40,286 nucleotides of DNA, taken from Sporichthya sp. GTDB lineage: Bacteria; Actinomycetota; Actinomycetes; Sporichthyales; Sporichthyaceae. Below the pieces are notes generated by a model. That model did no database searches. It saw only the letters and a program-made list of their open reading frames with translations, and was not told where the DNA came from. The translations under genes and the position numbers were made by a program. This document shows positions 6,990 to 20,264 of the stretch, one piece after another. The DNA lies in assembly GCF_013815995.1 (NCBI RefSeq), contig NZ_JACDFE010000008.1:1-40286 (forward strand). Direction: 5' to 3'. The stretch's first letter is position 1; each line of letters opens with the position of its first letter.

Positions 6990-8348
6990 TCAGATCCCCA
7001 TCAGGCCGCGGTAGAGCGCGTAGAAGTGGCGGATCTTCGTCTCCTGGTAGGCGCCGAAGCTGACGCCGGGCTTGTGCTCGACCAGGGTGTGCAGGCCCTT
7101 CTGCACGAAGCCGACGTTGTACTCGTCCTGGAAGAACACCCGGGCCAGTGGACCCAGTTCGACGGCCTCCAGGAAGGACTGCTCCAGGCCGAGGCGGCGC
7201 ACCGGTGCGTCCGGCGGACGCTCGCCGGAGAACGGGGAGAGCACGAGGACCTCCATGAAGCAGGTCTCCGGGTCCGCGCCGTTCGGGCGGAAGCGGTAGC
7301 AGGTGCGGTTGTAGCTGCCCCAGGGGTGAAAGTTCGGGAACGCCGTGTAGAAGAAGGTGTCCACGCACTCCGAATCTGACAGCTCGTCAGCTTTCGGGCC
7401 CAGCGAAGCGGCCATCCGCGAGCGGGTGGCCGCGGCGATCACGGTGCGGGCGGTGGCGCCGTCAGGGAGTTCGAGGATGCGCGGGTCGTCCAGGCCGAGG
7501 CCCATCATCGCGTCGAAGATCTCTTGCTCGGTGGGCTCATAACTCAGGTGCGGGCTGGGGGTGCCGCGCGGGGTGATCGCGCGCGACGTCCAGCCCCACG
7601 CGTCGTACTGGGAGTTGGCGTCGCCGATCCCGCGCAGCAGCTGCGGATGCGTGGTCACCACGTGGAAGCTCTCCATGAAGGCCTCCTGCGCGACCTTCCA
7701 GTTGCAGGGGAGCAGCTTCTCCACGTGCGCCTCGACGTAGCGTCCGGCCATGTCCCAGTGCTCGAGCTCGGTCAGCCGGCCGAGGTAGTCGCGCAGCGGT
7801 ACCTGATCCGGGTCGAGGCAGACGAAGACGAACCCGCCCCAGGTGTCCACCCGGACCTGCGGCAGCACGAAGGCCTCGTCGGTGACCTGGGGGAAGTCCC
7901 AGCGGGCCGGTACCCGGGCCAGCTCACCCCGCAGGTCCCAGCAGAAGCCGTGGAACTGGCAGGCCAGTTCGCTGACCGGACCGTCCACCTGGCGCAGTTG
8001 TCGGCCCCGGTGCAGACAGGCGTTGTAGAAGCCGCGCAGCCCGCCGTCGTCGCCGCGCACGAGCAGGATCGAGAGATCGGCAATGTCGTAGACGACAGTG
8101 TCGCCGGGGTTGGCCACCGCGGTCTCGCGGCAGGCGAACTGCCACACCGTCTTCCAGATCCGCTCCTTCTCCAGCGCGACCAGGTCGCGGTCGAAGTAGA
8201 AGGAGGCCGGGATGTCGGCGATGCCGAAGCCGGACTCGCCCTCGGTGCGGAGGAAGTCCGGGACCTCGCGGGTGTCCGCGTCGAGCAGGTCCTGGTAGCT
8301 CGGGCCGGGGGAGCGGTCCGTGCGCTCGGAGCGGGTGGGCGCGGTCAT
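6990..8348 (-). CDS. Rieske non-heme iron ring-hydroxylating oxygenase, alpha subunit
   Basis: A 452-residue oxygenase of the aromatic ring-hydroxylating type. The Rieske [2Fe-2S] ligands are visible as CLH and CQFHGFCW (CxH then CxxH) at about residues 110-135. The mononuclear iron site is visible in ESFHVVTTHP, where two histidines bind iron, plus a distal acidic residue. Such proteins hydroxylate or demethylate an organic substrate with electrons from a reductase, and no reductase gene lies nearby. The ATG at 8348 overlaps the stop of the upstream 82-residue gene (ATGA), so the two are translationally coupled. The substrate is not predictable from the sequence. Confidence 0.9.
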   Translation of the reverse strand: MTAPTRSERTDRSPGPSYQDLLDADTREVPDFLRTEGESGFGIADIPASFYFDRDLVALEKERIWKTVWQFACRETAVANPGDTVVYDIADLSILLVRGDDGGLRGFYNACLHRGRQLRQVDGPVSELACQFHGFCWDLRGELARVPARWDFPQVTDEAFVLPQVRVDTWGGFVFVCLDPDQVPLRDYLGRLTELEHWDMAGRYVEAHVEKLLPCNWKVAQEAFMESFHVVTTHPQLLRGIGDANSQYDAWGWTSRAITPRGTPSPHLSYEPTEQEIFDAMMGLGLDDPRILELPDGATARTVIAAATRSRMAASLGPKADELSDSECVDTFFYTAFPNFHPWGSYNRTCYRFRPNGADPETCFMEVLVLSPFSGERPPDAPVRRLGLEQSFLEAVELGPLARVFFQDEYNVGFVQKGLHTLVEHKPGVSFGAYQETKIRHFYALYRGLMGI

Positions 8349-8593
8349 CCCTGCCGCTCCGCCTCGACGCCGTGGTCCTGCGTGAACCCCACGAGGTGCC
8401 GGGAGGCCGGCGTGTAGCCCTGCGTCCCGACCCAGCGGCACAGCTCGGGATCGGCGGTGCGCAGCTCGCCCGCCACCCAGGTGCCGCGGAAGTCGAAGAT
8501 CCCGCGCTGCTCGCCCTTGGCCACCTCGACGCGGCCGTCCTCCAGCCCGGTGTAGATCGCCCCGCTGAACGGGTGCTCAAGCCGGAACGCCAT
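8345..8593 (-). CDS. Small conserved-looking hypothetical protein coupled to the Rieske oxygenase
   Basis: An 82-residue soluble protein beginning MAFRLEHPFSGAIYTGLEDG. Its stop codon overlaps the start of the Rieske oxygenase gene (ATGA), indicating tight co-translation. It has no cysteine pairs for a ferredoxin and no membrane segment. I do not recognise the family. An accessory or substrate-related role in the oxygenase system is plausible only from the coupling. The longer upstream frame runs into the divergent DedA promoter region, so the ATG at 8593 is preferred. Confidence 0.7.
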   Translation of the reverse strand: MAFRLEHPFSGAIYTGLEDGRVEVAKGEQRGIFDFRGTWVAGELRTADPELCRWVGTQGYTPASRHLVGFTQDHGVEAERQG

Positions 8594-8687
8594 GCGAAAT
8601 AGTCTAGCCCTTGACCTTTCCTGCGGTCCCCCAGCAGATGTCACCGTTACAAGCTGGGACCAAGGTGTCCGTGAGACCCTGACGCCG

Positions 8688-9440
8688 ATGAGTGCGTACG
8701 CGGGGGGTCCCAAGCTGCCCTGGGAGGGCAAGGCGCAGCCCGCCGACAAGGTGATCGTCGCGGTGATCATGCTCAGCGGGATCTACGGGCTGGCCACCAT
8801 GCCGCTGATCCCCTGGATGATCCAGGAGCACCCGGTCTGGCTGGCCGCGATCCGCGGCGGGATGACCTCCATCGTCAACCTCGGGGCGATGGCCCGGATC
8901 GGCGAGGTCAACGTCCTGGTCGCGATCTTCGTCGGCCTGCCGGCCACCGTGATGTTCGACTGGGCCTACTGGTGGGCCGGGGCGCGGTGGGGCGAGCGGG
9001 CCCTGCACATGATCCTCGGCGAATCCCGCAAGACCGAAGCGCGCCTGGAGAAGGTCAAGCGCTGGACCGAGAAGTACGGCGCGCTCGCGGTGCTGACCGC
9101 CTACTACCTACCGGTGCCGACCGTGCTGATCTATGCCGCCGCCGGCTGGGCCGGCATGCGGCTGACGACGTTCCTGATCCTGGACATCGTCGGAGCGCTG
9201 TTGTGGGTCGGGGTGCTCGCCGGCCTGGGCTACTGGGCCGGGCAGTCCGCGGTGGACGCCGTCGACGCGGTAGCGGACTACACGCTCTACATCACGATCG
9301 CCATCGTCGTGGTGGTGGTGGCGCGGCAGGTCTGGACGACGCGGCGTCAGATCAAGGAAGCGACGCAGGCCGCGCACGCCGAGAAGGCGGCGCGGGACAG
9401 CGCCGCGCGGGAGGACGCAGCCTCCGACCCTGTCGCCTGA
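8688..9440 (+). CDS. DedA/VTT-domain integral membrane protein
   Basis: A 250-residue membrane protein with four to five hydrophobic segments. It contains the VTT-type central region (FDWAYWWAGARWGERALHM, then YYLPVPTVLIYAAAGWAGM) typical of the DedA/SNARE-associated family, which is linked to lipid scrambling and membrane homeostasis. A long C-terminal helix rich in Ala, Glu and Arg faces the cytoplasm. The ATG at 8688 has only a weak ribosome-binding site. It is divergent from the Rieske pair and convergent, by 3 bases, with the following lipoprotein gene. Confidence 0.8.
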   Translation: MSAYAGGPKLPWEGKAQPADKVIVAVIMLSGIYGLATMPLIPWMIQEHPVWLAAIRGGMTSIVNLGAMARIGEVNVLVAIFVGLPATVMFDWAYWWAGARWGERALHMILGESRKTEARLEKVKRWTEKYGALAVLTAYYLPVPTVLIYAAAGWAGMRLTTFLILDIVGALLWVGVLAGLGYWAGQSAVDAVDAVADYTLYITIAIVVVVVARQVWTTRRQIKEATQAAHAEKAARDSAAREDAASDPVA

Positions 9441-9443
9441 CGG

Positions 9444-10115
9444 CTACTCGAGGCCGGCGCGCATCCCGTCCTGGGTCAGCTCCACCCACATCGCCCGGCC
9501 GCCGCGCTCGGTGTTGAAGGTGACGACGTACTTCTCGGCCGGCTCCAGGTTCAGCTCGCCGTTGCCGTGCCGCAGGCCCTGCTCGGCCCAGGCCGGCTCG
9601 CCTTCCTTCGGGTCGGTGCGGGTCCAGCCGTCCTTCTCCAGAATCTCGATCGCCTGCGCGCCGGTGATGTTCCGCCACAACGCGGAGACGCCGCCGAAGT
9701 CCGGGCCCTCCGCGGGGTCGCAGTGGAAGGTGTCGTCGGGGTGCATCGGCTCCACCTGGCGCAGCGCCTTGGCGGGGAACAGCGCAAGCACGTGCTTGTT
9801 GATCAACGCATTGGAAGCGGCCACCGCGAGCGCGCACTCCTGCTTGCCGGCCTTCGGCTGGTCGCTGGTCGGGTCCTTGCCCTTCCGCGGGTCGGTCGTG
9901 GCGATCGGCTTGGTGCCCGTGGCGGTGCCGTCCTTTCCGGACTCGGCCACCGTCTTCGCGTCGTCGGCGGGCCGGCCGGTGGTGCTATCGGCAGCCTTGT
10001 CAGCAGGCACGATGTCGACCCGGCCGTCGATCGCGGCCGGCTCCTCGTCGCCGGCGCAACCCCCCAGGGCAAGCACCAGTGCCGCGGCTCCGCACCCGAT
10101 CCGCCAGTTCCTCAT
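9444..10115 (-). CDS. Secreted lipoprotein of unknown function
   Basis: A 223-residue protein with a lipoprotein signal (lipobox LGGC at about residue 20) and a low-complexity Asp/Lys/Thr/Gly-rich linker to about residue 85. A compact C-terminal domain starts near KQECALAVAASNALINKHV and holds two cysteines that could form a disulfide. I do not recognise the domain. It has its own start and lies between the convergent DedA gene and the remains of the flagellar locus. Confidence 0.7.
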   Translation of the reverse strand: MRNWRIGCGAAALVLALGGCAGDEEPAAIDGRVDIVPADKAADSTTGRPADDAKTVAESGKDGTATGTKPIATTDPRKGKDPTSDQPKAGKQECALAVAASNALINKHVLALFPAKALRQVEPMHPDDTFHCDPAEGPDFGGVSALWRNITGAQAIEILEKDGWTRTDPKEGEPAWAEQGLRHGNGELNLEPAEKYVVTFNTERGGRAMWVELTQDGMRAGLE

Positions 10116-10160
10116 GTTCCTACTGTGCCGACAACAGCCCCCTGAAGCGGGGATGTCCGC

Positions 10161-10523
10161 CTAGAAACTGGCGTCGAGGAAGGCCGGAGTGCTGCGGTCG
10201 AGCGCGTGCGCCTGGATCCGCTCGGCGAGGCGGAGCTCCTGACGGGCGGCGGCGACGGCCCGGCTGAGGTCCTCGGCCAGGCGCAGCTGCCGGGCGGCGA
10301 TCGCCTCGGCGCGGGCGCGCAACCGCTCGGGCAGCGGACCGGACAGGGCCGGGGCGACCCAGTCCGGACGGGGCGCCACCGCGACCGCGGGCGTTCCGTC
10401 GGTCAGCAGCCGCTCGGCACGGGTGACGTCGAGCTCGAGCGTGATCAGCGCGTCGGCCCAGGCGGTCTCCCAGTCGGTCGCGAGCTGCTCGGGCGCGACC
10501 AGGCGCAGAGTGCGTTCGGCCAT
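10161..10523 (-). CDS. Small helical protein of a flagellar locus (possible FliT-like chaperone)
   Basis: A 120-residue, largely alpha-helical protein starting MAERTLRLVAPEQLATDWETAWADAL. It lies directly downstream, by 10 bases, of the fliS remnant on the same strand. In other actinobacterial flagellar clusters a small protein of this general type often follows fliS, which would suit a FliT-like export chaperone, but the similarity is weak and the role is inferred mainly from position. The frame looks intact, unlike its neighbours. Confidence 0.55.
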   Translation of the reverse strand: MAERTLRLVAPEQLATDWETAWADALITLELDVTRAERLLTDGTPAVAVAPRPDWVAPALSGPLPERLRARAEAIAARQLRLAEDLSRAVAAARQELRLAERIQAHALDRSTPAFLDASF

Positions 10524-10533
10524 CACGTCCGCC

Positions 10534-10689
10534 TCAGCCCGCGCGCTCGACCGGGGCGGCCGCGACGGAGACCTCAAGGGCGGCGGCCCGCCAGGCTTCG
10601 GCGAGAGGCTCCACCAGGGCGCGGACCCCGGCGGTGCGCTCCGGATCGCCGGCGACGTTCGCGCGGACCCTGGTGGGGAGGTAAGCCAT
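10534..10689 (-). pseudogene. fliS: fliS remnant: C-terminal fragment only
   Basis: The translated stretch RVRANVAGDPERTAGVRAL, then VEPLAEAWRAAALEVS, resembles the C-terminal end of FliS, the cytoplasmic flagellin export chaperone. FliS proteins are usually about 120-140 residues; only about 45 recognisable residues remain. The 5' part is missing, and the frame now begins opposite the start of the divergent flgL gene, so a rearrangement junction lies near 10670-10690. It is probably not functional. Assignment rests on a short match made by eye. Confidence 0.55.
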
Positions 10690-11206
10690 GATCGGACGTG
10701 TCACCCAGCGCTCGATCGCGACGCACACGCTGATGGGTTTGCAGGGCAACCTGAGTCGGATGGCCGGCATCCAGCAGCAGCGCTCCAGCGGCAAGCAGAT
10801 CTCGCGGCCCTCGGACTCGCCGACCGGCACCGTCGCCGCGATGCAGATGCGTGGCGAGATCCGCGACAGGGCGCGGACATCTTCGGTGTGCTGACCGACA
10901 TCTCGACCGCGCTGCGCTCGGGCAACCGCGCCGCTCTGAACACCGGGCTGGGTGACCTCGACACCGCGATGAACCGGATCTCCGGCAAGCTCGCGGAGGT
11001 CGGCGCCGGCTACAACCGGCTTGAGCAGATGCAAAGTGCCGCCGACGACCGGGTGATCAGTTTGACGACCTCGTTGTCCGACGTCGAGGACATCGACCTG
11101 CCCGCAACCATCGTGGAGCTCAACTTGGCCCAGGTAGCCCAGCAGGCCGCGCTCGCCGCGACCGAGCGCGTGATCGCCCCCTTCGCTTGCGGACTTTCTC
11201 CGATGA
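10688..11206 (+). pseudogene. flgL: flgL pseudogene (hook-filament junction protein) with internal deletion and frameshifts
   Basis: The N-terminal part (MIGRVTQRSIATHTLMGLQG, LSSGK-like RSSGKQISRPSDSP) is the D0/D1 start of FlgL and has a good GGGGAGG ribosome-binding site. After about 60 codons the frame ends shortly past RGEIR. In another frame the C-terminal part follows directly (DIFGVLTDISTALRSGN, NRLEQMQSAADDRV, VEDIDLPATIVELNL). Roughly 130 central residues of an expected ~300 are gone. A second lesion near 11180 removes the natural end: dropping one base restores SLADFLR and a TGA that overlaps the fliW start. With three lesions this is a pseudogene. Confidence 0.85.
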
Positions 11207-11628
11207 GCGCCGTGATCGAGGGCTCCGTCGGACAAGGGGAGCTGGAAACGGTGCCCGCGCTGGAGTTCGTCGGCCCGGTCGCCGGTTTCGCCGCGCTGTG
11301 TTCGTTCGTGCTCACCGAGATCGACCCCGCCTCGGTGGTGTGTGCGATGCGCTCACTGGAGGACCCCGAGGTGCGGTTCCTGGTGATGCCACCCGGACCG
11401 TTCTTCCCCGACTACGCGCCGGAGATCAGCGACGACTGGGCCGAGAGCCTTGGCTTGACCTGCGCCGAGGACGCGTTGGTGCTGGTCATCGTCAACCCCG
11501 GCACCTCGGTTGCCGACGCGACGGTGAACCTGCTCGCGCCCATCGTCATCAACACCGTCACCCTGCATGCCGCGCAGGTCGTCCTCGCCGAGGACCTGCC
11601 GCTGCGGGCACCCCTGCCGGTGAACTGA
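11203..11628 (+). CDS. fliW: FliW flagellar assembly factor
   Basis: A 141-residue protein matching FliW throughout: LEFVGPVAGF, MRSLEDPEVRFLVMPPGPFF, PDYAPEISDDWAESLGL, and a C-terminal TVNLLAPIVINTVTLHAAQV. FliW binds flagellin and the translational regulator CsrA, linking flagellin level to its synthesis. The ATG overlaps the ancestral flgL stop (ATGA), the normal actinobacterial flgL-fliW coupling. The frame is intact although flgL is destroyed. csrA, usually next, is absent; the fliW 3' end overlaps by 71 bases with a convergent kinase gene. It may be a recently orphaned gene awaiting decay. Confidence 0.88.
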   Translation: MSAVIEGSVGQGELETVPALEFVGPVAGFAALCSFVLTEIDPASVVCAMRSLEDPEVRFLVMPPGPFFPDYAPEISDDWAESLGLTCAEDALVLVIVNPGTSVADATVNLLAPIVINTVTLHAAQVVLAEDLPLRAPLPVN

Positions 11629-12136
11629 CGACCGGTGAACTGACGGCCTCCGCGATCTGTTCAGCGACCCGCTCGCCGTCCAGGTCGGTGGTGTCGACCG
11701 TCAGATCGGCGAGCTGCTCGAGCAGCGGGTACCGGTACTCGACCTGGGTGCGTAGCTGAGCTTCGACGTCGTCGTTCCACGGGCGACCGGAGCCTTCGGT
11801 CGCCCGGGCCGCGAGCGTCCGCGCGTCGGCGCGCAGCCACACCACGAACGCGCGCTCGGCCAACACGCGTCGGCAGGTCAGACTCTCCACCGTCGAGGCC
11901 GCGGCCGTGAGGACGCTGCGCTCCTCCGAGTTCAGCAGATCCAGCAGCACCGCGGCCTCGGCGGCGTGCAGGGCGTCCAGGCCGTTGCGGTCCTTGAGCT
12001 GCGCGGCACTGGCGCCGAACCGGGCCAGCAGCTCGCCGTCGTTGTCGCGGTAGGTCCACCCCAGCCGAAGCGCCAAGCGCTCGCCGACCGTCGTCTTCCC
12101 GCTGCCCATCAGCCCGAGCAAAGCGATCCGTTCCAT
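11558..12136 (-). CDS. Shikimate-kinase-like P-loop kinase
   Basis: A 192-residue small nucleoside/shikimate-kinase-type ATPase with Walker A GLMGSGKTT at the N-terminus and a RDNDGELLARFG segment at the place of the shikimate kinase DxD region. A lid-like stretch lies around RATEGSGRPWND. It would phosphorylate a small hydroxylated metabolite; true shikimate kinase is not assured because it does not sit in an aroma-type (aro) operon. The last 20 or so residues are low-complexity Ala/Pro/Arg and run over the end of fliW on the other strand, which suggests the reading frame was extended by rearrangement. Confidence 0.75.
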   Translation of the reverse strand: MERIALLGLMGSGKTTVGERLALRLGWTYRDNDGELLARFGASAAQLKDRNGLDALHAAEAAVLLDLLNSEERSVLTAAASTVESLTCRRVLAERAFVVWLRADARTLAARATEGSGRPWNDDVEAQLRTQVEYRYPLLEQLADLTVDTTDLDGERVAEQIAEAVSSPVVSSPAGVPAAAGPRRGRPARHAG

Positions 12137-12331
12137 GCCGGCGTTCTACCCGCGTCGGCCCCGCGTCACCCGGTCCGCTGGCACCGCCTCTGAAACGCAA
12201 CTGAGCGACAAGGTTGAGACGCGGGAGGTGCCTCGTCGGCCCCGGATCGCATCACACGTATCAACCCTGTCGCCCAGTGGTGCGAAGCCGGGCGAGCGCG
12301 TGCCGCACGGAGCGCCGGAGCGGGCTCCCCT

Positions 12332-12625
12332 ATGCTCGGCGGCACCGGCGCGGCTCAAGGAAGGGCCGCTGCCTCCCACGGAAGGTCGGCACGGCAGCGA
12401 ATCGGCAGTCTGGAGGAATCCCAGCGGGCCGTGCTGAACGTCCACGACAACGTGCTGCAGAACATCTTCGCCTCCGGCCTGATGCTCAGGACGACGCTGA
12501 ACACCGGTGCGCCCCCGGCTATCACCATGGAGCAGACGCTGGACCGGATGGACGACGCGGTGCGCGCCATCCGGCAGGTCGTCGAAGACCTCAACGACCA
12601 GCTCGACGCGAATCCAACGACCTAG
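12332..12625 (+). CDS. Stand-alone histidine-kinase dimerisation-type domain (no ATPase domain)
   Basis: A 97-residue protein whose helical core VHDNVLQNIFASGLMLRTTL matches the phospho-accepting helix of HisKA_3 kinases, including the histidine. The second helix (DRMDDAVRAIRQVVEDLND) is also present. No HATPase domain follows before the stop. It could be a remnant of a kinase or a small phosphotransfer/dimerisation partner for the receiver protein encoded 94 bases downstream. The ATG at 12332 has GGAG upstream; an in-frame GTG at 12299 is an alternative. Confidence 0.55.
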   Translation: MLGGTGAAQGRAAASHGRSARQRIGSLEESQRAVLNVHDNVLQNIFASGLMLRTTLNTGAPPAITMEQTLDRMDDAVRAIRQVVEDLNDQLDANPTT

Positions 12626-12719
12626 GTCCGCACCGATCGGGACTCTTGGCCTGTCCTGTCGTGGGTCTGCGCGACCGATGCACACGAGGTAAGGAAATCC
12701 GACCCGGGAGGCGGAGGTC

Positions 12720-13151
12720 ATGTTCAAGCAGCTTTGTCCCGAGACCGAACGGCTCGACCCGCTGCAGCTGCGTGCGACCTTCTGCCGGGTCCAGGTGTTG
12801 ATCGTCGACGACAGCGCACTGGTCCGCCGGTTGATCACCGCCCAGCTGGAGGGCACCGGTCGCTTCGACCTCGTGATGACGGCCGGCGACGGCAACGAGG
12901 CGATCGGCCTCGCCGAGTTGATGCAGCCCGACGTGGTCCTTCTCGATCTGTCGATGCCCTTCCTCGGTGGTCTCGAAGCCCTGCCGCTCGTGCTCTCCGT
13001 CGCCCCGCACGCGCGGGTGATCGTGATGTCCGGCTCGCCGTCGGACGAGATGGCGGTCCGCGCTCTGGCCGCGGGCGCAGTCGGCTATCTGGACAAGGGG
13101 CCGCAGCTGCACCTGCCGGCCGTCATCGACGCCGTTCTGGGCGCGGCCTGA
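12720..13151 (+). CDS. Single-domain response regulator (CheY-like receiver)
   Basis: A 143-residue receiver. Acidic pocket residues VDDS, the phosphorylatable Asp in VVLLDLSMP, Ser in VIVMSGS and Lys in GYLDKG are all present. There is no output domain; about 25 residues precede the receiver. The start has a good GGGAGGCGGAGG ribosome-binding site. Its sequence strongly resembles the receivers in the minus-strand REC-REC-Hpt protein (15015-16151) and in the 18787-19482 protein, pointing to local duplication. It may act in a phosphorelay with the Hpt domain of the former. Confidence 0.88.
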   Translation: MFKQLCPETERLDPLQLRATFCRVQVLIVDDSALVRRLITAQLEGTGRFDLVMTAGDGNEAIGLAELMQPDVVLLDLSMPFLGGLEALPLVLSVAPHARVIVMSGSPSDEMAVRALAAGAVGYLDKGPQLHLPAVIDAVLGAA

Positions 13152-13227
13152 GGGGTTTGTCCACAGGCCTCCCGCCGCCCCGCCGTTTCGGGGCAGACTC
13201 CTGCCTTCGCTGACATCGGGGGTGGCC

Positions 13228-13470
13228 ATGGAGCAGCACGATTTCGAGTTGCGGTTGGAGGGGACCGGCGAGGAACGCGGGGCCCTCCGGCTCGATGCGC
13301 TGAGTGAAATCTGCCCGGCGGCTGCAGGAGCTGTCGCGGCGGGTCGCGCGCCACGTCGCGGGCGGGCCGGAGGTCGGTCGCACGCCGGACCATCCGGCCG
13401 CGGTCGGTCGCCTTGTCCTGCGGGAATCCGGGCCGGCAGCGCTGCGGGCTTGTGGGCAGCGCCCTCCTGA
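13228..13470 (+). pseudogene. Frameshifted fragment of a hypothetical protein
   Basis: The start MEQHDFELRLEGTGEERGAL, then RLDALSEI, reads well and has GGGGGTGG upstream. From about 13312 the coherent sequence shifts to the next frame as ARRLQELSRRVARHVAGG and VGRTPDHPAAVGRLVLRES. One extra base near 13311-13313 would explain this. The joined protein resembles a class of actinobacterial hypotheticals with no assigned function. The remainder to about 13670 holds no feature I can identify. Confidence 0.45.
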
Positions 13471-13672
13471 CTCCGGAGGGGTAGGCAGGAGGACGCCGCT
13501 GAGCGCTTACCTGTCGCCGGGAGGGGTGTCGCGCAGGCGGGCGCTGAAGGCGGCGAATGTCCGCCTTGTCGTAGGAGAGTTGGTGCCGCGTCGTCGAGGC
13601 CGGCCGCTTCGCGAGCGAGAGCCCTCGCCACTCCTGCTGCGGCCGGATCGGACGGGACTCGATGTCGGTGGG

Positions 13673-14065
13673 TCAGGCGCCGGGCGGGGCGAAGAACTCC
13701 AGCGGCAGGTTGTCGGGGTCGCGGAAGGACAGGCCGGACCCGTAGGGCGCGTCCACGATGCCACCGTGCTTGATGCCGAGGCCGTCGAGGTGCTTCTGCT
13801 GCAGCTCGAGGGCGGCGCGGTCGGGGCAGCCGAAGGCGAGGTGGTCGAGACCGACGCGACGCTCGTCGAACCGGGTCGCATCGGTCCCGCTGGGGAACTG
13901 GTGCAGACCGATCAACGTCCCGTCGATGGCCCAGACGACGTGCCGGAACGGGCCGGTGTCCTCGTCGAGGACCGGTTCGGCCCCGAACAGGGCGGTGTAC
14001 CAGGGGACGCTCACGGACAGGTCCCGGACGGTGAGAGCGACGTGGGTGATCGAGGGGAAGGACAT
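13673..14065 (-). CDS. VOC superfamily (glyoxalase/dioxygenase fold) protein
   Basis: A 130-residue vicinal-oxygen-chelate protein: ITHVALTVRDLSVSVPWYTALFG at the start (first beta-alpha-beta unit) and GLDHLAFGCPDRAAL, then LSFRDPDNLPLEFF in the second. The histidines in ITHVAL and LDHLAF and the glutamate in PLEFF occupy typical metal-binding positions. AGGAG lies before the ATG. The reaction is not predictable. It is inserted between remains of flagellar genes. Confidence 0.85.
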   Translation of the reverse strand: MSFPSITHVALTVRDLSVSVPWYTALFGAEPVLDEDTGPFRHVVWAIDGTLIGLHQFPSGTDATRFDERRVGLDHLAFGCPDRAALELQQKHLDGLGIKHGGIVDAPYGSGLSFRDPDNLPLEFFAPPGA

Positions 14066-14178
14066 AGTAGGGCTCCTGAGGTGTCGGGGTCGCTTGGCAG
14101 TTCGACCTTTACCCCTGCACCCGGCCATGATCAAGTGCAGGTTCAATACCGACCCGCCCAGATTCTGGGCTGGGCACC

Positions 14179-14515
14179 TCACCGTCCGGGCAGCGCCGGC
14201 ACCTTGTGTGTCCCCACGGCCGAGCCGCGGGCCTTCAGCGACAGCACGAACGCCAGCACCTGCGCGACGGCGGCGAACAGCTCGCCGGGGATCTCCTGCT
14301 CCACCTCGCACGCCTTGTAGAGCGCCCGGGCCAGCGCGACGTCGGAGACCATGGGCACCCGGTGCTTGGCGGCCTCCTCGCGGATCCAGGTCGCCACGTG
14401 ACCTGAACCCTCGCACGACGTCGCCGTTGGCGATCTTGCTCATCATCCGGTTGCGGCTCATCGCATCTGCTTGGACCGGATCGCGCCCTTGAGGGGGTTC
14501 ATCCCCTTCCACTAC
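14179..14515 (-). pseudogene. flhB: flhB remnant (flagellar export switch protein, C-terminal parts)
   Basis: On the minus strand several frames give FlhB-like pieces in the right order: VEGDEP, then PLKGAIRSKQMR, then MSRNRMMSKIANGDVV, then HVATWIREEAAKHRVPMVSD and VALARALYKACEVEQEIPGE with LFAAVAQVLAFVLSLKARG. FlhB gates export in the flagellar type III apparatus, and these match its linker and cytoplasmic domain. The NPTH autocleavage segment is absent: about 35 residues are deleted between GDVV and HVATW. At least two frameshifts separate the pieces, and the membrane part is missing. Confidence 0.75.
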
Positions 14516-14760
14516 GGCTTGAGGTTCTTCGTCGCCAGGTGCACCCCCCTGCGCCGCCGAGGTGATGAAGGTGACCACAGCCAGGCTCCTTCTGGCCCGG
14601 AGTTGAGGACCAACGGCCAGGTCGATAAGAGGACCGAAAAGTCATCGGTGGGGACGGGACCTTCGACCCTGGGAGGGCCTTGCGGCCTCGGCTTCACTCG
14701 AATGGCGGTCGACGGCACCCGACCGCCGCTCACTCTGGCGGGTGAGAGAAGAGGTTGCGC

Positions 14761-14795
14761 GAGGGCCCGGATCGCTGCGGTCGATCCGGGCCCTC
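14761..14795. terminator. Strong hairpin, possible terminator
   Basis: GAGGGCCCGGATCG (14761-14774) pairs perfectly with CGATCCGGGCCCTC (14782-14795) around a 7-base loop. It has no T tract on either side. It could be the terminator of the minus-strand REC-REC-Hpt gene or of a lost gene. Confidence 0.55.
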
Positions 14796-14914
14796 ACGTC
14801 ATAACGGCCGCCACGTCAGCAGCCGGCGCGCCGCCTTCCCTGGCCGATTCACGCCTTGCGGCCCGGTCCGAACGGGGGCGCGACCTCCTTGCGCTGATCA
14901 CCGGCGGAATGACA

Positions 14915-14977
14915 GACCCGGCGGACCCGGCGGACCCGGCGGACCCGGCGGACCCGGCGGACCCGGCGGACCCGGCG
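14915..14977. repeat. Seven exact copies of a 9-bp tandem repeat
   Basis: GACCCGGCG is repeated seven times without interruption, just downstream of the REC-REC-Hpt stop. If read it would give Asp-Pro-Ala repeats, but no gene covers it. It is a probable slippage-prone variable-number repeat. Confidence 0.9.
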
Positions 14978-15014
14978 GTTGGGCGGGAATGGCCCGACCC
15001 GGCTATGAATCCGG

Positions 15015-16151
15015 CTAGACCTGCCCCGGTGGCCCTGCTGCGACGCCGGCCGATGCCCAACGGTCGAAGGCCGCGCGGAGCTGTCTCACCCGGTCGCGGC
15101 TGCCGTCGAGTGAACCGGCTGCGGCCAGGAACTCCAGCTCCCGCGAGATCGACTCCATCCTCAGTGCCCCGACACTTGCGGCGGCGCCCTTGATCGCGTG
15201 CGCAAGCCGGGTGACCTCCTGGGCATCGCCGGTGCCGATCGCGGCCTGAAGGTGGGTCAACCGGTCCTGGGCATGTACCCGGAAGCCTTCCAGGATTGAG
15301 GCGACGGCCGCGGGTCCGATCCGGCCGATGAGGGTGGAGAGCGCCTCCTGGTCCACGTCGTGCCCGGGATCGGTGATCTCGTCGGGTTGCTCGCGCCGTG
15401 GCCGGGCGGCATGGCGGGCCAGCGCAGCATCCAGATCGGACAACACGAGGGGCATGGACAGGTGGTCGGTCAACCCCGCCGCCAGCCAGGACTCCCGCCC
15501 ACGTCCGAGATCGCCGGACATCACGATCACCGGCAGGGGGCGGTGCTCACCGGCCCGGCGCTGCAGCTGCGCGGCCACCTCGGCCGCGGTCAGGTTGGGC
15601 AACTGATCGGCGAGCAGGACGGCCGCGTACCTGCGGGTCCCGGCCAGGGCCACCCCGATGCTTCCGTCGGCGGCCACGTCGGCGCGGTATCCGAGCCACT
15701 CGAGCAGATGCCGGACGAGTTCCTGGTCGTCGCGATCGGGGTCGATGACGAGAATCGGCGGTTGTTCTGGTGACTGGCCGTCGGAGGTGTCGCCGAGGGC
15801 CTCGCGCAGACGGGCCGGCAACGAGCCCGCCCGGAGATGCTTTTCCACGAAGCCGCACGCGCCCAGCGCGCCCGCGGTCCTGGAGAACTCTCGTCGGCCG
15901 AACCCGGACAACACCACAACCTGGGTGGAGGGCGAGGCGGCCAGGATCAGCGGGAGGGCTTCCAACCCACCCATGCCGGGCATCGCCAGATCGAGCAGCA
16001 TCACCTCGGGCCGGTAATGGCCGGCGATCTCGATGGCTTCCTTTCCGTCGGCGCCCTCGGCGCAGACCTCGAAGCCGCGGTCGCGCTCAAGCTCCGCGCG
16101 CCACAGGGATCGGACGTCTTCGGAGTCGTCGATGATCGCGACTTTTCGCAT
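15015..16151 (-). CDS. REC-REC-Hpt phosphorelay protein
   Basis: A 378-residue protein. A canonical receiver (residues 1-120) has IDDSED, LLDLAMPGMGG, VVLSGF and VEKHL. A second receiver-like domain (about 130-250) looks degenerate: the phospho-Asp position reads LLADQLP with Ala four residues before Pro, and the KP motif is MP. A C-terminal Hpt domain (about 275-370) has the phosphoacceptor motif HAIKGAAASVGA. The ATG at 16151 is preceded by AAAGGAG. It would relay phosphate through the Hpt histidine, perhaps with the nearby single receivers. It is divergent from the diguanylate cyclase gene across 207 bases that probably hold both promoters. Confidence 0.88.
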   Translation of the reverse strand: MRKVAIIDDSEDVRSLWRAELERDRGFEVCAEGADGKEAIEIAGHYRPEVMLLDLAMPGMGGLEALPLILAASPSTQVVVLSGFGRREFSRTAGALGACGFVEKHLRAGSLPARLREALGDTSDGQSPEQPPILVIDPDRDDQELVRHLLEWLGYRADVAADGSIGVALAGTRRYAAVLLADQLPNLTAAEVAAQLQRRAGEHRPLPVIVMSGDLGRGRESWLAAGLTDHLSMPLVLSDLDAALARHAARPRREQPDEITDPGHDVDQEALSTLIGRIGPAAVASILEGFRVHAQDRLTHLQAAIGTGDAQEVTRLAHAIKGAAASVGALRMESISRELEFLAAAGSLDGSRDRVRQLRAAFDRWASAGVAAGPPGQV

Positions 16152-16358
16152 GGCGTCTCCTTTCGGCGAGCTCAGGAGTCCCGCCATCGGCAGGATCGGT
16201 CGGCACGAGCGCGCCTGTGAGGGGGCATTGGTCCTGACAGGCATCGAAGGAGCGGGACGAGGACGGGACCTTCGGTCCTCGATGCGGGCGTGCCCATGGC
16301 CGACAACACGGACATCAGCGCAATTCGGTCCCGAACCCTCAACAACGAACGAGGAACA

Positions 16359-17291
16359 ATGACGAGTGCCGGCCAGATCGACGGCGGTGTCGAGCAGGCC
16401 CTGTTGCGGTCGGTACTCGACAACGTTCCCGCGCCGATCGCCTACTGGGACCGCGCCCGACGCAACGTGGTGGCCAATCGCGCCTATCTCGACTGGTTCG
16501 GCAGAACGCCGGAGCAGGCCCGAGGCCTGCATATCCGCGAGGTGCTCGGGGAGGTGCTCTACCGGCGGAGCCGGCCGCACATCGACGGCGTCCTGGCCGG
16601 GGTGGCCCAACAGTTCGACCGCACCGTCGTTGATCCGTCGGGCCGGGTGCGGCATTCGCAGACGTCGTATGTCCCGGACCTGGACCAGGACGGCGCGGTG
16701 CGAGGCTTCTACTCCCTGGTCAGCGACGTCACGGCTCGCGTTCACGCCGAGGCCGATGCGGCGACGATGCGGCTCGACCTCACGTCGAAGGCGACCACCG
16801 ATCCGCTGACCGGGCTGGCCAACCGCCGCGAACTTACTCGGCGGGGAACTGCGGCGTTGGCGGAATGCGCTGCGGGGGGCGGCCCGCTCGCCCTGCTCGT
16901 CCTGGACCTGGACGGCTTCAAGGCGGTCAACGATGCCTGGGGTCACGCCGCGGGTGACGCCGTGCTGGTGCAGATCGCGGGCCGACTCACTGCGAGCCTT
17001 CGTCCGACCGACCTGGTGGCCCGCGTGGGCGGGGACGAGTTCGTGGTGGTGATACCCCACATCGGATCCGCCGCCGCCGCGTCCCGGGTCGCGGACCGGT
17101 TGATCGCGGCGGTGCGTACACCCGTCGCCCTGGGCTCCTGCCCATCCGGACCGATCTCCCTCGGGGTCAGCGTCGGCGTGGTCGTGGTCGGTCCAGGTCC
17201 CGGGCAGGCCAGCCTGGATCAGCTGATGGCGGAGGCCGACCGCCGGATGTACTGCGCCAAACGTGAGGGTGGCGCGCGCTGGTCGGGCTGA
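16359..17291 (+). CDS. PAS-GGDEF diguanylate cyclase
   Basis: A 310-residue cytoplasmic enzyme. A PAS domain (about residues 15-135; LDNVPAPIAYWDRARRNVVA) is followed by a GGDEF domain (about 145-305) with DPLTGLANRRE, DLDGFKAVND and an intact GGDEF active motif, so it should make cyclic di-GMP from two GTP. An inhibitory I-site RPTD lies exactly five residues before GGDEF, indicating product feedback control. I chose the ATG at 16359 because it has GAGGA just upstream; an in-frame ATG further upstream would add 23 residues. It is divergent from the REC-REC-Hpt gene. With flagella lost, c-di-GMP would have another target here. Confidence 0.88.
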   Translation: MTSAGQIDGGVEQALLRSVLDNVPAPIAYWDRARRNVVANRAYLDWFGRTPEQARGLHIREVLGEVLYRRSRPHIDGVLAGVAQQFDRTVVDPSGRVRHSQTSYVPDLDQDGAVRGFYSLVSDVTARVHAEADAATMRLDLTSKATTDPLTGLANRRELTRRGTAALAECAAGGGPLALLVLDLDGFKAVNDAWGHAAGDAVLVQIAGRLTASLRPTDLVARVGGDEFVVVIPHIGSAAAASRVADRLIAAVRTPVALGSCPSGPISLGVSVGVVVVGPGPGQASLDQLMAEADRRMYCAKREGGARWSG

Positions 17292-17429
17292 ATCTGATCC
17301 CAGTCGGTTCGGGACTTTGGTCCAGTCATCCTCGCCGGATGACGAGCCGATGAGATCAACACGGGCGCCGAAGCGCCGGTCTCGCCTCATCGTAGGCAGC
17401 AACGCTCTCGACCCGCTTGGGGTGGCGGA

Positions 17430-17705
17430 ATGAAGTACGCGGTGCGCGTTCTCTCGGGAGCGGTGCTGGGCGTTGGCCTTGCCGTCCTCGTCGGCTGGTA
17501 CTTCCACCTGGACACCTTGACCTCCCTGGTACCGGGCTACGCCTCGATGAAGCCGAACACGGCGCTCGGACTGGCGGTGCTGGCGGGCGGGGACATCTGG
17601 TACGAAGCGAACCGGCCGTCCGGGGCCTGCTTCGCCGTTCGGCTGCCCGTCGCTCGCGAGCCCGTTTCCCTGCCCCGGGCCCGGCGTGAAGGAGCAACGA
17701 GGTGA
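17430..17705 (+). pseudogene. Collapsed sensor histidine kinase: N-terminal membrane segment joined to the ATPase tail
   Basis: The frame is open for 91 codons. Residues 1-52 (GAVLGVGLAVLVGWYFHLD, LVPGYASMKPNTALGLAVLA) look like the membrane-entry start of a sensor kinase. Residues 53-76 (GGDIWYEANRPSGACFAVRL) look like the last strand of a HATPase domain. Everything between, usually several hundred residues, is missing, with the frame preserved. It overlaps the next start by GTGA, so it still heads an operon. A short membrane peptide may be made, but it cannot be a kinase. Confidence 0.65.
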
Positions 17706-18838
17706 ACCCGCTTCCTGTGGCGGAGTCCGTCGGTGACCTGCCTGGAGCGTGCCCGGGCCAGGCCGCGGCCGACGCGGCGCTGGCGGCTGCGTTGCCGATG
17801 TTGGCCGAGCTTTCCGGCGCGACCACTGTGCTGGTGGTTCGCCCGCGCGGCGAGGGCGAGATTGTCGCGATGCGCGTGGGGCCCGACCTGGACCCCGACG
17901 CACTGGCGAGTGGCCGGACCGCCACCCGGCCGTTGCCCGGCAATGCGGGTGACGTGGTCGCGGCCTGGGTCCACGAACCGGACGAGCCGTGCCTGATCCG
18001 GCTGGAGCTGGCGCTGACCATCGTCACCGAACGCCTCGCCCGTCTGAACGCCGAGGACCAGCTCATGGATCTGACGGCACGTATGAACAGCGCCCAGCAG
18101 CTGGCCAACATGGGCGACTACGACTGGCACATCGCCAGCGACACCAACCGGTGGTCGGATCAGCTCTACCGCATCTACGGCCATGAGCCGCAGTCGTTCA
18201 ACCCCTCCTACGAACTCTTCCTGGCCCACATCCATCCGGAGGACCGGGACCGGGTCGCGGCGGTCCACCAGCACGCCTATGCCACCGGCGAGCCGTACGA
18301 GATGGTCGAGCGCGTTGTCCGGCCGGACGGTGGGGTCCGCTACCTGTCGTCCAACGGCCAGGTCGTCCTCGACGAAGCCGGCCGGCCCACCCGGATGCGG
18401 GGCACCTGCATCGACATCACCGACCGGGTCCTGGCCGAGCAGGCCCGCGAACGCATCGCGGCCCGCTTTCGCCACATGGTCGATTCGTGTCCCGACGCGA
18501 TCCTGGTGCTCGATGTCCAGGGCCGGATCGTGCAGGGCAACCGCCGCGCCCACGACCTTCTGGGTGGCGACCCCACCGGCAGGAGAGTCGAGGAGATCGC
18601 ACGCGGGCTGCGCGTCGACGGCCAGGGGATCGAGGCCCTGGGCCTCGACGGTCGGCCGCTGAGACTTGACGTGATCACCGCCGAGCTCAGCGGGTCGACG
18701 GGGAATTCCTGCTCGCGGTCTACCTTCGCGACGCGTGCGTCCGCCTCGCCAACGAAGCACATGCCGCCGCCCTCCGGGAGGTCCAGGTGCGCCACCGCCA
18801 GGCGCTGGAGATCAACGACGACGTCGTACAGGGGCTGA
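17702..18838 (+). CDS. PAS-PAS sensor protein, 3' end out of frame
   Basis: The first 330 of 378 codons read well. There is an N-terminal region of unknown type (GAF-like, about 20-120), a PAS/PAC domain at about 128-245 (NMGDYDWHIASDTNRWSDQL, then RGTCIDITDR) and a second PAS at about 255-325 (MVDSCPDAILVLDVQGRIVQ). Near 18692-18700 the coherent sequence moves to another frame, as GEFLLAVYLRDACVRLANEA, which continues into the 18787-19482 frame. One missing G would rejoin them into a protein of about 593 residues with a C-terminal receiver. The last 48 residues of this frame are therefore spurious. It starts at a GTG overlapping the upstream stop. Confidence 0.7.
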   Translation: MNPLPVAESVGDLPGACPGQAAADAALAAALPMLAELSGATTVLVVRPRGEGEIVAMRVGPDLDPDALASGRTATRPLPGNAGDVVAAWVHEPDEPCLIRLELALTIVTERLARLNAEDQLMDLTARMNSAQQLANMGDYDWHIASDTNRWSDQLYRIYGHEPQSFNPSYELFLAHIHPEDRDRVAAVHQHAYATGEPYEMVERVVRPDGGVRYLSSNGQVVLDEAGRPTRMRGTCIDITDRVLAEQARERIAARFRHMVDSCPDAILVLDVQGRIVQGNRRAHDLLGGDPTGRRVEEIARGLRVDGQGIEALGLDGRPLRLDVITAELSGSTGNSCSRSTFATRASASPTKHMPPPSGRSRCATARRWRSTTTSYRG

Positions 18839-19482
18839 CGGCCGCGGTCCTGGCCATGCAGCAGGGAGACCTCGCGGGGTCCACGTCCTATCTGGAACGG
18901 ACGTTGTCGGCCGCTCGCCGGCTGATGAATGGTTGGTCGCAGCCGAGTGGAGACCACCCGCTCCTACCGGGAGATCTGGTACGCACGCTCGCCTCATCGC
19001 TCCACGGCCCAGCGGCTGCAGCCGTCACCAATAGTCCCCCCGGGTCGGTGGCGCCGGGGTCGGCGCCCACGATCCTGGTGGTGGACGACAGCAGCGACGT
19101 CCGAACACTGCTGTGCGCCCAGCTGAGATCCATGGGGAAGTACGAGATCGTCGGACAGGCAGCCGACGGCAAGGAGGCGGTCCGCCTGGCCGCATCCCTG
19201 CAGCCTCAGGTAGTCCTCTTGGACCTTTCGATGCCTGAGATGGACGGCTTGCAGGCGCTCCCGTTGATCCTTGAGGTCGCGGCCGGCGTCCGAGTCATCG
19301 TGATGTCCGGTTTCGATCAGCGCCGCGTGGGTGCTCAGGCGTTGGCCGCCGGCGCGGTTCGCTACATCGAGAAGGGCTTGCGCATGGACCTGGCCACCGT
19401 GATCGACGAAGTCCTGGCGGTGGCGGAGGCGCCCTCCGTCCGGGTTTCCGGGGCGCCGGCGCAGCTACGGTGGTCCACTTAG
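18787..19482 (+). CDS. DHp-like helix plus receiver domain (3' part of the frameshifted sensor, or a separately started protein)
   Basis: 231 residues. An N-terminal helix RQALEINDDVVQGLTAAVLA resembles the phospho-accepting helix of HisKA_3 kinases but with Asn at the histidine position. A canonical receiver follows at about residues 95-215 (VDDSSD, VVLLDLSMPEMDG, VIVMSGF, RYIEKG). A GTG at 18787 has GGGAGG five bases upstream, so it could be translated on its own. The receiver closely resembles those at 12720-13151 and 15015-16151. It lacks any DNA-binding or enzymatic output domain. Whether one long protein or two are made depends on the frameshift at about 18695. Confidence 0.75.
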   Translation: MRHRQALEINDDVVQGLTAAVLAMQQGDLAGSTSYLERTLSAARRLMNGWSQPSGDHPLLPGDLVRTLASSLHGPAAAAVTNSPPGSVAPGSAPTILVVDDSSDVRTLLCAQLRSMGKYEIVGQAADGKEAVRLAASLQPQVVLLDLSMPEMDGLQALPLILEVAAGVRVIVMSGFDQRRVGAQALAAGAVRYIEKGLRMDLATVIDEVLAVAEAPSVRVSGAPAQLRWST

Positions 19483-19595
19483 GGCGTTTCGGCCGCGAAT
19501 ACCTCGAGTTGGTCGTCGCGGATGCCGAAGATCCAAGGAATGCACGGGCATCGAAGTCGGCGCCCGAGCCATGACGGGGAAAGGAATCCGTACAA

Positions 19596-20264
19596 GTGGA
19601 CACCTCCGAGCAACTGTCGGGCGACGCCAGCCCCATCACCGTCTTCCTGCTGGACGACCACGAGATCGTCCGGCGCGGCGTGGCCGACCTGTTGAACTCC
19701 GCCCCCGACATCACCGTGGTCGGCGAAGCCGGCACCGCCGCGCAGGCGCTGGTCCGCATCCCCGCCCTCAAGCCGCAGGTCGCGGTCCTGGACGCCCGGC
19801 TGCCCGACGGCAGCGGCATCGACGTCTGTCGTGACATCCGCTCGGCCATGCCCGAGGTGCGCTGCCTGATCCTGACCAGTTACGACGACAACGACGCGAT
19901 CTTCGCCGCCGTGATGGGCGGCGCGGCCGGCTATCTGCTCAAGGAGATCCGCGGGACCAACCTGCTGGACGCGATCCGCCAGGTCGCCGCCGGCAAGTCC
20001 CTGCTGGACCCCTCCGTCACCGAGCGGCTGCTGGCCCGGCTGCGTGACGGCGCCCCGACCGACCCGCGAATGGCCTCGCTGTCCGAGCGGGAGCGGGAGA
20101 TTCTCACCCTGATCGCCGACGGCCTGACCAACCGGCAAATCGGCGAGCGCCTCTTCCTGGCCGAGAAGACCGTGAAGAACTACGTCTCCGCGCTGCTGGC
20201 CAAGCTCGGCATGGAGCGGCGCACCCAGGCCGCGGTCTACGCCGCGGAGCTTCGCAAGTCGTAG
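19596..20264 (+). CDS. DevR/NarL-type response regulator with LuxR helix-turn-helix
   Basis: A 222-residue regulator. The receiver (about 14-130) has LLDDHE, AVLDARLPDGSG, LTSYDD and YLLKE. The C-terminal LuxR-type domain (about 155-220) has LSEREREILTLIADGLTNRQ and AEKTVKNYVSALLAKLGM. This order is that of DevR/DosR proteins, which respond to hypoxia or redox signals in other actinobacteria; that role is not shown here. The GTG at 19596 has GGAAAGGA about 10 bases upstream. It lies 75 bases before the persulfide dioxygenase gene, but a separate operator lies between them. Its kinase is not obvious. Confidence 0.9.
   Translation: MDTSEQLSGDASPITVFLLDDHEIVRRGVADLLNSAPDITVVGEAGTAAQALVRIPALKPQVAVLDARLPDGSGIDVCRDIRSAMPEVRCLILTSYDDNDAIFAAVMGGAAGYLLKEIRGTNLLDAIRQVAAGKSLLDPSVTERLLARLRDGAPTDPRMASLSEREREILTLIADGLTNRQIGERLFLAEKTVKNYVSALLAKLGMERRTQAAVYAAELRKS

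Follow-up and report, generated by a model that had tools for sequence, protein, structure and literature searches.

Relics of a flagellar and chemotaxis island very probably lost in place in a Sporichthya genome

The window, the whole 40,286 bp stretch of DNA analysed here and at the same time an entire contig (C9) of a 4.5 Mb Sporichthya draft genome (383 contigs, 94.6% complete), very probably holds the remains of a flagellar and chemotaxis island that was lost completely, in situ and fairly recently, with a broken flgL and an orphaned fliW among its relics. According to the scheme we propose, the lineage would once have carried a complete, single-locus island of the kind that the sister species keep and, with motility no longer selected, would have lost it at its original site through repeated deletions and minor frameshifts. 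Directly visible are the lesions, the colinear relics strung between conserved flanks on a single contig, and the lack of key flagellar, motor, chemotaxis and regulator genes in the rest of the genome; the cell is presumably non-motile, and the loss probably followed relaxed selection. The original prediction dealt with flgL, one gene of an island-wide loss whose true extent is the whole island.

Two genomes of the same genus, G001 (one contig, 5.5 Mb) and G002, served for comparison, and both carry flagellin and FlhA. In G001 the complete island with the flagellar and chemotaxis genes, from flgB to fliS, spans 42.7 kb (C1:938,960-981,680; 42,721 bp). It starts with flgB, flgC, fliE, fliF, fliG, fliH, fliI, the hook genes and flgE, followed by motA, motB, fliL, fliM, fliN, fliO, fliP, fliQ, fliR, flhB and flhA, then by a receiver gene, a histidine kinase, cheA, cheW, a chemoreceptor, cheB, cheR, cheY and csrA, and finally by a sugar kinase, fliW, flgL, flgK, flgN, a sigma factor, fliC, fliD and fliS; these names were read from the translations and are backed by profile matches in the case of flagellin, FlhA, FliF, CsrA and FliW. 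One side of the island is bordered by a LuxR-type regulator and then a metallo-hydrolase/rhodanese protein, the other by the small gene p72, a lipoprotein, a VTT-domain protein and a Rieske dioxygenase. Flagellin, FlhA, FliF, CsrA and FliW were all not found in two genomes of the sister genus (G003 and G004). Right after flgE, G001 has a strong hairpin of about 80 bases (C1 ~948,700-948,780; -75.2 kcal/mol, z -7.2). Its further copies on both strands, at dozens of sites in G002 and at some in the genome studied here, suggest a dispersed family of palindromic repeats in the genus.

The flgL relic lies at the same genomic place as flgL of the relatives and is likewise followed by fliW. As the original prediction had it, the N- and C-terminal sequences stand in different frames: the N-terminal part (10688-10868, plus strand; MIGRVTQRSIATHTLMGLQ...MRGEIRD) is read in the frame of 10688, which runs into a stop at 10892-10894 after 68 amino acids, and the C-terminal part (10869-11206, plus strand; GADIFGVLTDISTALRSGN...ATERVIAP) in the frame of 10690. 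Intact FlgL has 298 residues in both G001 and G002, to which the two parts are 80% and 77% identical, respectively, and 293 residues in a more distant member of the class (G012, contig C15). Aligned with the 298-residue protein, the window lacks residues ~62-187. The loss of the middle thus stood, and its size, predicted at about 130 residues, is corrected to 125-126: against G002, whose aligned blocks are window 10691-10868 and 10869-11181, 376 bp are missing between 10868 and 10869, and the same deletion against G001 comprises 974861-975236. Since 376 equals 3 × 125 + 1, the deletion is out of frame. The predicted one-base lesion was also seen, as one extra base relative to G002 (~11182) ahead of the former stop codon; taken alone, and read from the sequence alone, it is indistinguishable from an assembly error. 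Because of it the C-terminal part reads past the SLADFLR stop (TGA, ~11204-11206), which overlaps the fliW start (ATG at 11203), and continues in frame into fliW, while the natural stop stands in the frame of the start codon 10688 because the two shifts cancel in length (-376 + 1).

A Pfam search gave a Flagellin_C match over the cut-off in the C-terminal part (E 6e-7), and a Flagellin_N match in the N-terminal part that falls below the cut-off (E 2.8e-4) because this part is truncated. No second flagellin-family gene was found by a Flagellin_N search of the genome, whose single hit, a weak match on contig C213, was dismissed as chance, the gene there reading as peptide chain release factor 2 (prfB). 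At the sequence level these data support destruction of flgL through two lesions, a large deletion that is out of frame and a one-base shift, and confirm the reading of the gene as a pseudogene of FlgL, the hook-filament junction protein. As to direct repeats, inspection by eye of the deletion ends at 10669 and 10869 revealed at most one or two matching bases, and with relatives this divergent no mechanism can be claimed.

The relatives bear on whether the shortened flgL, or the open frame of 246 amino acids (10888-11628, start GTG at 10888) that fuses its C-terminal part to fliW, could be a functional gene under selection. This fused frame does carry both Flagellin_C and FliW matches. However, the short form is present in no relative, G001 and G002 both having the full-length gene, and with filament, hook, export gate and flagellin all gone a junction protein would be left without partners. 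Moreover, substitutions in the N-terminal part are spread evenly over the three codon positions (9, 9 and 7), unlike in constrained genes. We regard a functional short gene as the least probable of the explanations weighed here, and return to loss of the whole island.

Matched to G001 by blastn, the island relics form eleven colinear blocks in strict reverse order between the flanks, all with E values of 2.5e-10 or better except one at 4e-8, whereas in 20 Markov shuffles of window 10669-14800 nothing matched the island at E 1e-3. The retained blocks are 74-91% identical to G001 and G002 at the DNA level. The ten gaps between them amount to 40,096 bp of the 42,721 bp of the G001 island, with 2,936 bp retained; they were measured against G001, and a few could be insertions in the relatives rather than deletions in the window. 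Deletion is directly evident from the broken frames of flgL and flhB and from the truncation of fliS and the kinase.

Neighbours of the island are present on both sides on the single contig, at 6990-10523 and 19596-40042. The right-hand group (6990-10523: Rieske dioxygenase, p75, a VTT/DedA-like protein, a lipoprotein and p72) is colinear with G001:C1:981.7-985.2 kb. It adjoins a relic of fliS (10534-10669, minus strand) that has kept the C-terminal ~44 codons, with 81.8% amino acid identity over these and a weak Pfam FliS match, and has lost its 5' part; p72 and this fliS end form one block (window 10405-10669, matching G001 981802-981545). At the junction 10669-10671 a deletion of 6.1 kb (window 10668/10669 maps to 22730/28834 of the G002 region; G001 975438-981544 is missing) has removed the rest of fliS, fliD, the flagellin gene fliC, the sigma factor, flgN and flgK. 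The next two blocks (window 10671-10868 and 10869-12131), separated by the flgL deletion, contain the flgL pieces, fliW (11203-11628, plus strand) and an open shikimate-kinase-like gene (11561-12136, minus strand), which belongs to the island neighbourhood in G001 and G002. Next is a piece of the sequence immediately upstream of csrA (12326-12385; G001 972466-972526, blastn E 4e-8), csrA itself being deleted. A gap of ~9.8 kb, which has taken csrA, the che genes (cheA among them) and the N-terminal part of histidine kinase p52, precedes the C-terminal remnant of that kinase (12394-12625, plus strand; block 12394-12609). An open receiver-domain (CheY-like) gene (12720-13151, plus strand; block 12774-13152) is the orthologue of p50 of G001. 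The small gene p48 has retained a frameshifted C-terminal half (13510-13663, minus strand; block 13514-13662), and flhA, its neighbour in G001, is wholly deleted. The flhB relic (14182-14643, minus strand; blocks 14197-14420, 14413-14493 and 14495-14584; Pfam Bac_export_2 E 4e-19) survives as three fragments, about residues 86-131, 232-263 and 287-364, with frameshifts and internal deletions. A further deletion of 17.3 kb, from flgB to the N-terminal part of flhB, separates it from the intergenic region upstream of flgB (14657-14798), the other end of the island. The left-hand neighbour, a LuxR-type response regulator (19596-20264, plus strand; match from 19632), shares 94% amino acid identity with p25 of G001.

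Two stretches of the window have no counterpart at their place in G001. Between the p48 and flhB relics lies a complete-looking gene of the glyoxalase/VOC family (13673-14065, minus strand; Pfam E 5.6e-10), which was probably inserted during the decay. Positions 14799-19631 comprise 4.8 kb of signalling genes (receiver-Hpt, PAS-GGDEF, a PAS protein and a receiver), either inserted in the window or lost in G001. Within them ~18049-19408 matches G001:C1:2,676,779-2,678,145 at 70%, and three receiver genes, located in this stretch and at 12720, resemble p50 of G001. By eye, 17430-17705, a short membrane N-terminus joined directly to a part resembling a kinase C-terminus, and 17717-18838, a PAS protein with its C-terminal residues apparently frameshifted, look degenerate.

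The rest of the genome was searched for flagellar genes, and flagellin, FlhA, CsrA, FliF, CheW and MotA were not found elsewhere by searches of this 94.6% complete assembly for these six families. The searches for flagellin, FlhA, CsrA and FliF recovered the genes in G001 and/or G002; those for CheW and MotA were positive only in named control genomes. In addition, a 15 kb DNA query of motor and export genes matched the genome strongly only at the flhB and p48 relics of the window, its many short matches elsewhere being mostly the dispersed hairpin repeat. Hence the loss includes the motor, the export gate, the filament, the chemotaxis core and the CsrA regulator.

These results also weigh on an assembly artefact or chimera, in which the real genome would have an intact island that was collapsed or dropped in the draft, a concern that an assembly in 383 contigs naturally raises. 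Yet the window has both flanks and every relic on a single contig, arranged as in the intact island, and one misjoin cannot give at least ten separate gaps with diverged relics between them. With so many gaps in the same island, the original argument that multiple lesions speak against sequencing error gains much strength. Furthermore, the relics stand at normal interspecies distance from G001 and G002 and are thus no stray sequence from those species, and none of the six flagellar, motor, chemotaxis and regulator families turned up elsewhere. An artefact of this kind is accordingly very improbable, if slightly less so than a functional short flgL, and loss of the island in place is the reading followed below.

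Not everything in the island has decayed visibly: open frames persist in fliW, the receiver gene and the kinase-like gene, and the dN/dS of fliW is well below 1, but so is that of the dead C-terminal part of flgL. The fliW frame has 141 codons, is in frame with the C-terminal part of flgL and matches the FliW profile (PF02623; E 1.4e-27, 96-98 bits against a cut-off of 25). It is the only FliW of the genome and is orphaned, with flagellin and CsrA absent and the upstream operon deleted; the 6.1 kb deletion presumably took the promoter of the operon together with the genes upstream of flgL. An open frame, a match well over the cut-off and a dN/dS below 1 could suggest that fliW alone is retained for a non-flagellar role while the rest decays. 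However, CsrA, its known partner, is absent, and FliW accompanies FlhA in 23 of the 25 FliW carriers among 198 members of the class, FlhA too being present in 25 of the 198. The genome studied here and G012 are the two with FliW and no FlhA found. In G012 FliW lies on a contig of 3.4 kb (C15) with intact flgK and flgL and a csrA-like frame, and this case may reflect contamination by that contig, incompleteness of the genome or a further partial loss. Moreover, the dN/dS of fliW to the relatives (0.25-0.29, bootstrap 0.16-0.43) does not fall below that of the dead flgL part (0.24-0.33) and is three times that between the flagellated relatives (0.08). These values fit constraint for most of the divergence and freedom since, with no sign of special retention, and fliW is most likely a leftover that has not yet decayed. 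Retention of fliW alone for a non-flagellar role is improbable, though the least so of the three alternatives, and we give an equally small chance to its being kept by selection, perhaps as the fused frame, for a role without CsrA and flagella.

The coding fragments in general have a low dN/dS, 0.1-0.5, as expected of recent decay: 0.09-0.12 for fliS, 0.16-0.20 for flhB, the above value for the C-terminal part of flgL and 0.47 for its N-terminal part, all rough estimates from short fragments. Most of the divergence would thus have accumulated under constraint, which suggests that the loss was recent relative to the species split.

Compared with the FliW-CsrA-flagellin homeostasis of Bacillus subtilis (PMC6529632), the window has a FliW over the profile cut-off that follows flgL, and the relatives have csrA in the same island; in contrast, flagellin and CsrA are both missing in the window, so the FliW switch cannot work there as described. 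The window shares with the intact island of G001 and G002 the flanking genes, the gene order and the 74-91% DNA identity of the retained blocks, and differs in that ~94% of the 42.7 kb is gone. Massive flagellar losses from a motile ancestor are already known across Actinomycetia, and almost all actinobacterial flagellar genes lie in one cluster (Zhu et al., 2023, mBio, PMC10746217); the window is a further case of such a loss, of such a cluster, and not new in kind. The main text of that paper has no mention of "Sporichthya", "Sporichthy" or "remnant". While Zhu et al. score presence or absence across species, as is usual when actinobacterial flagellar losses are inferred, the window reveals a loss within a genus with some ten relics in place, intact sisters and conserved flanks. 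It indicates that the island was removed by numerous individual deletions and not by one excision, and that the regulators and chemotaxis genes went with the motor. It brings no new principle and provides a useful worked case of the decay of a large cluster in a free-living, high-G+C genome.
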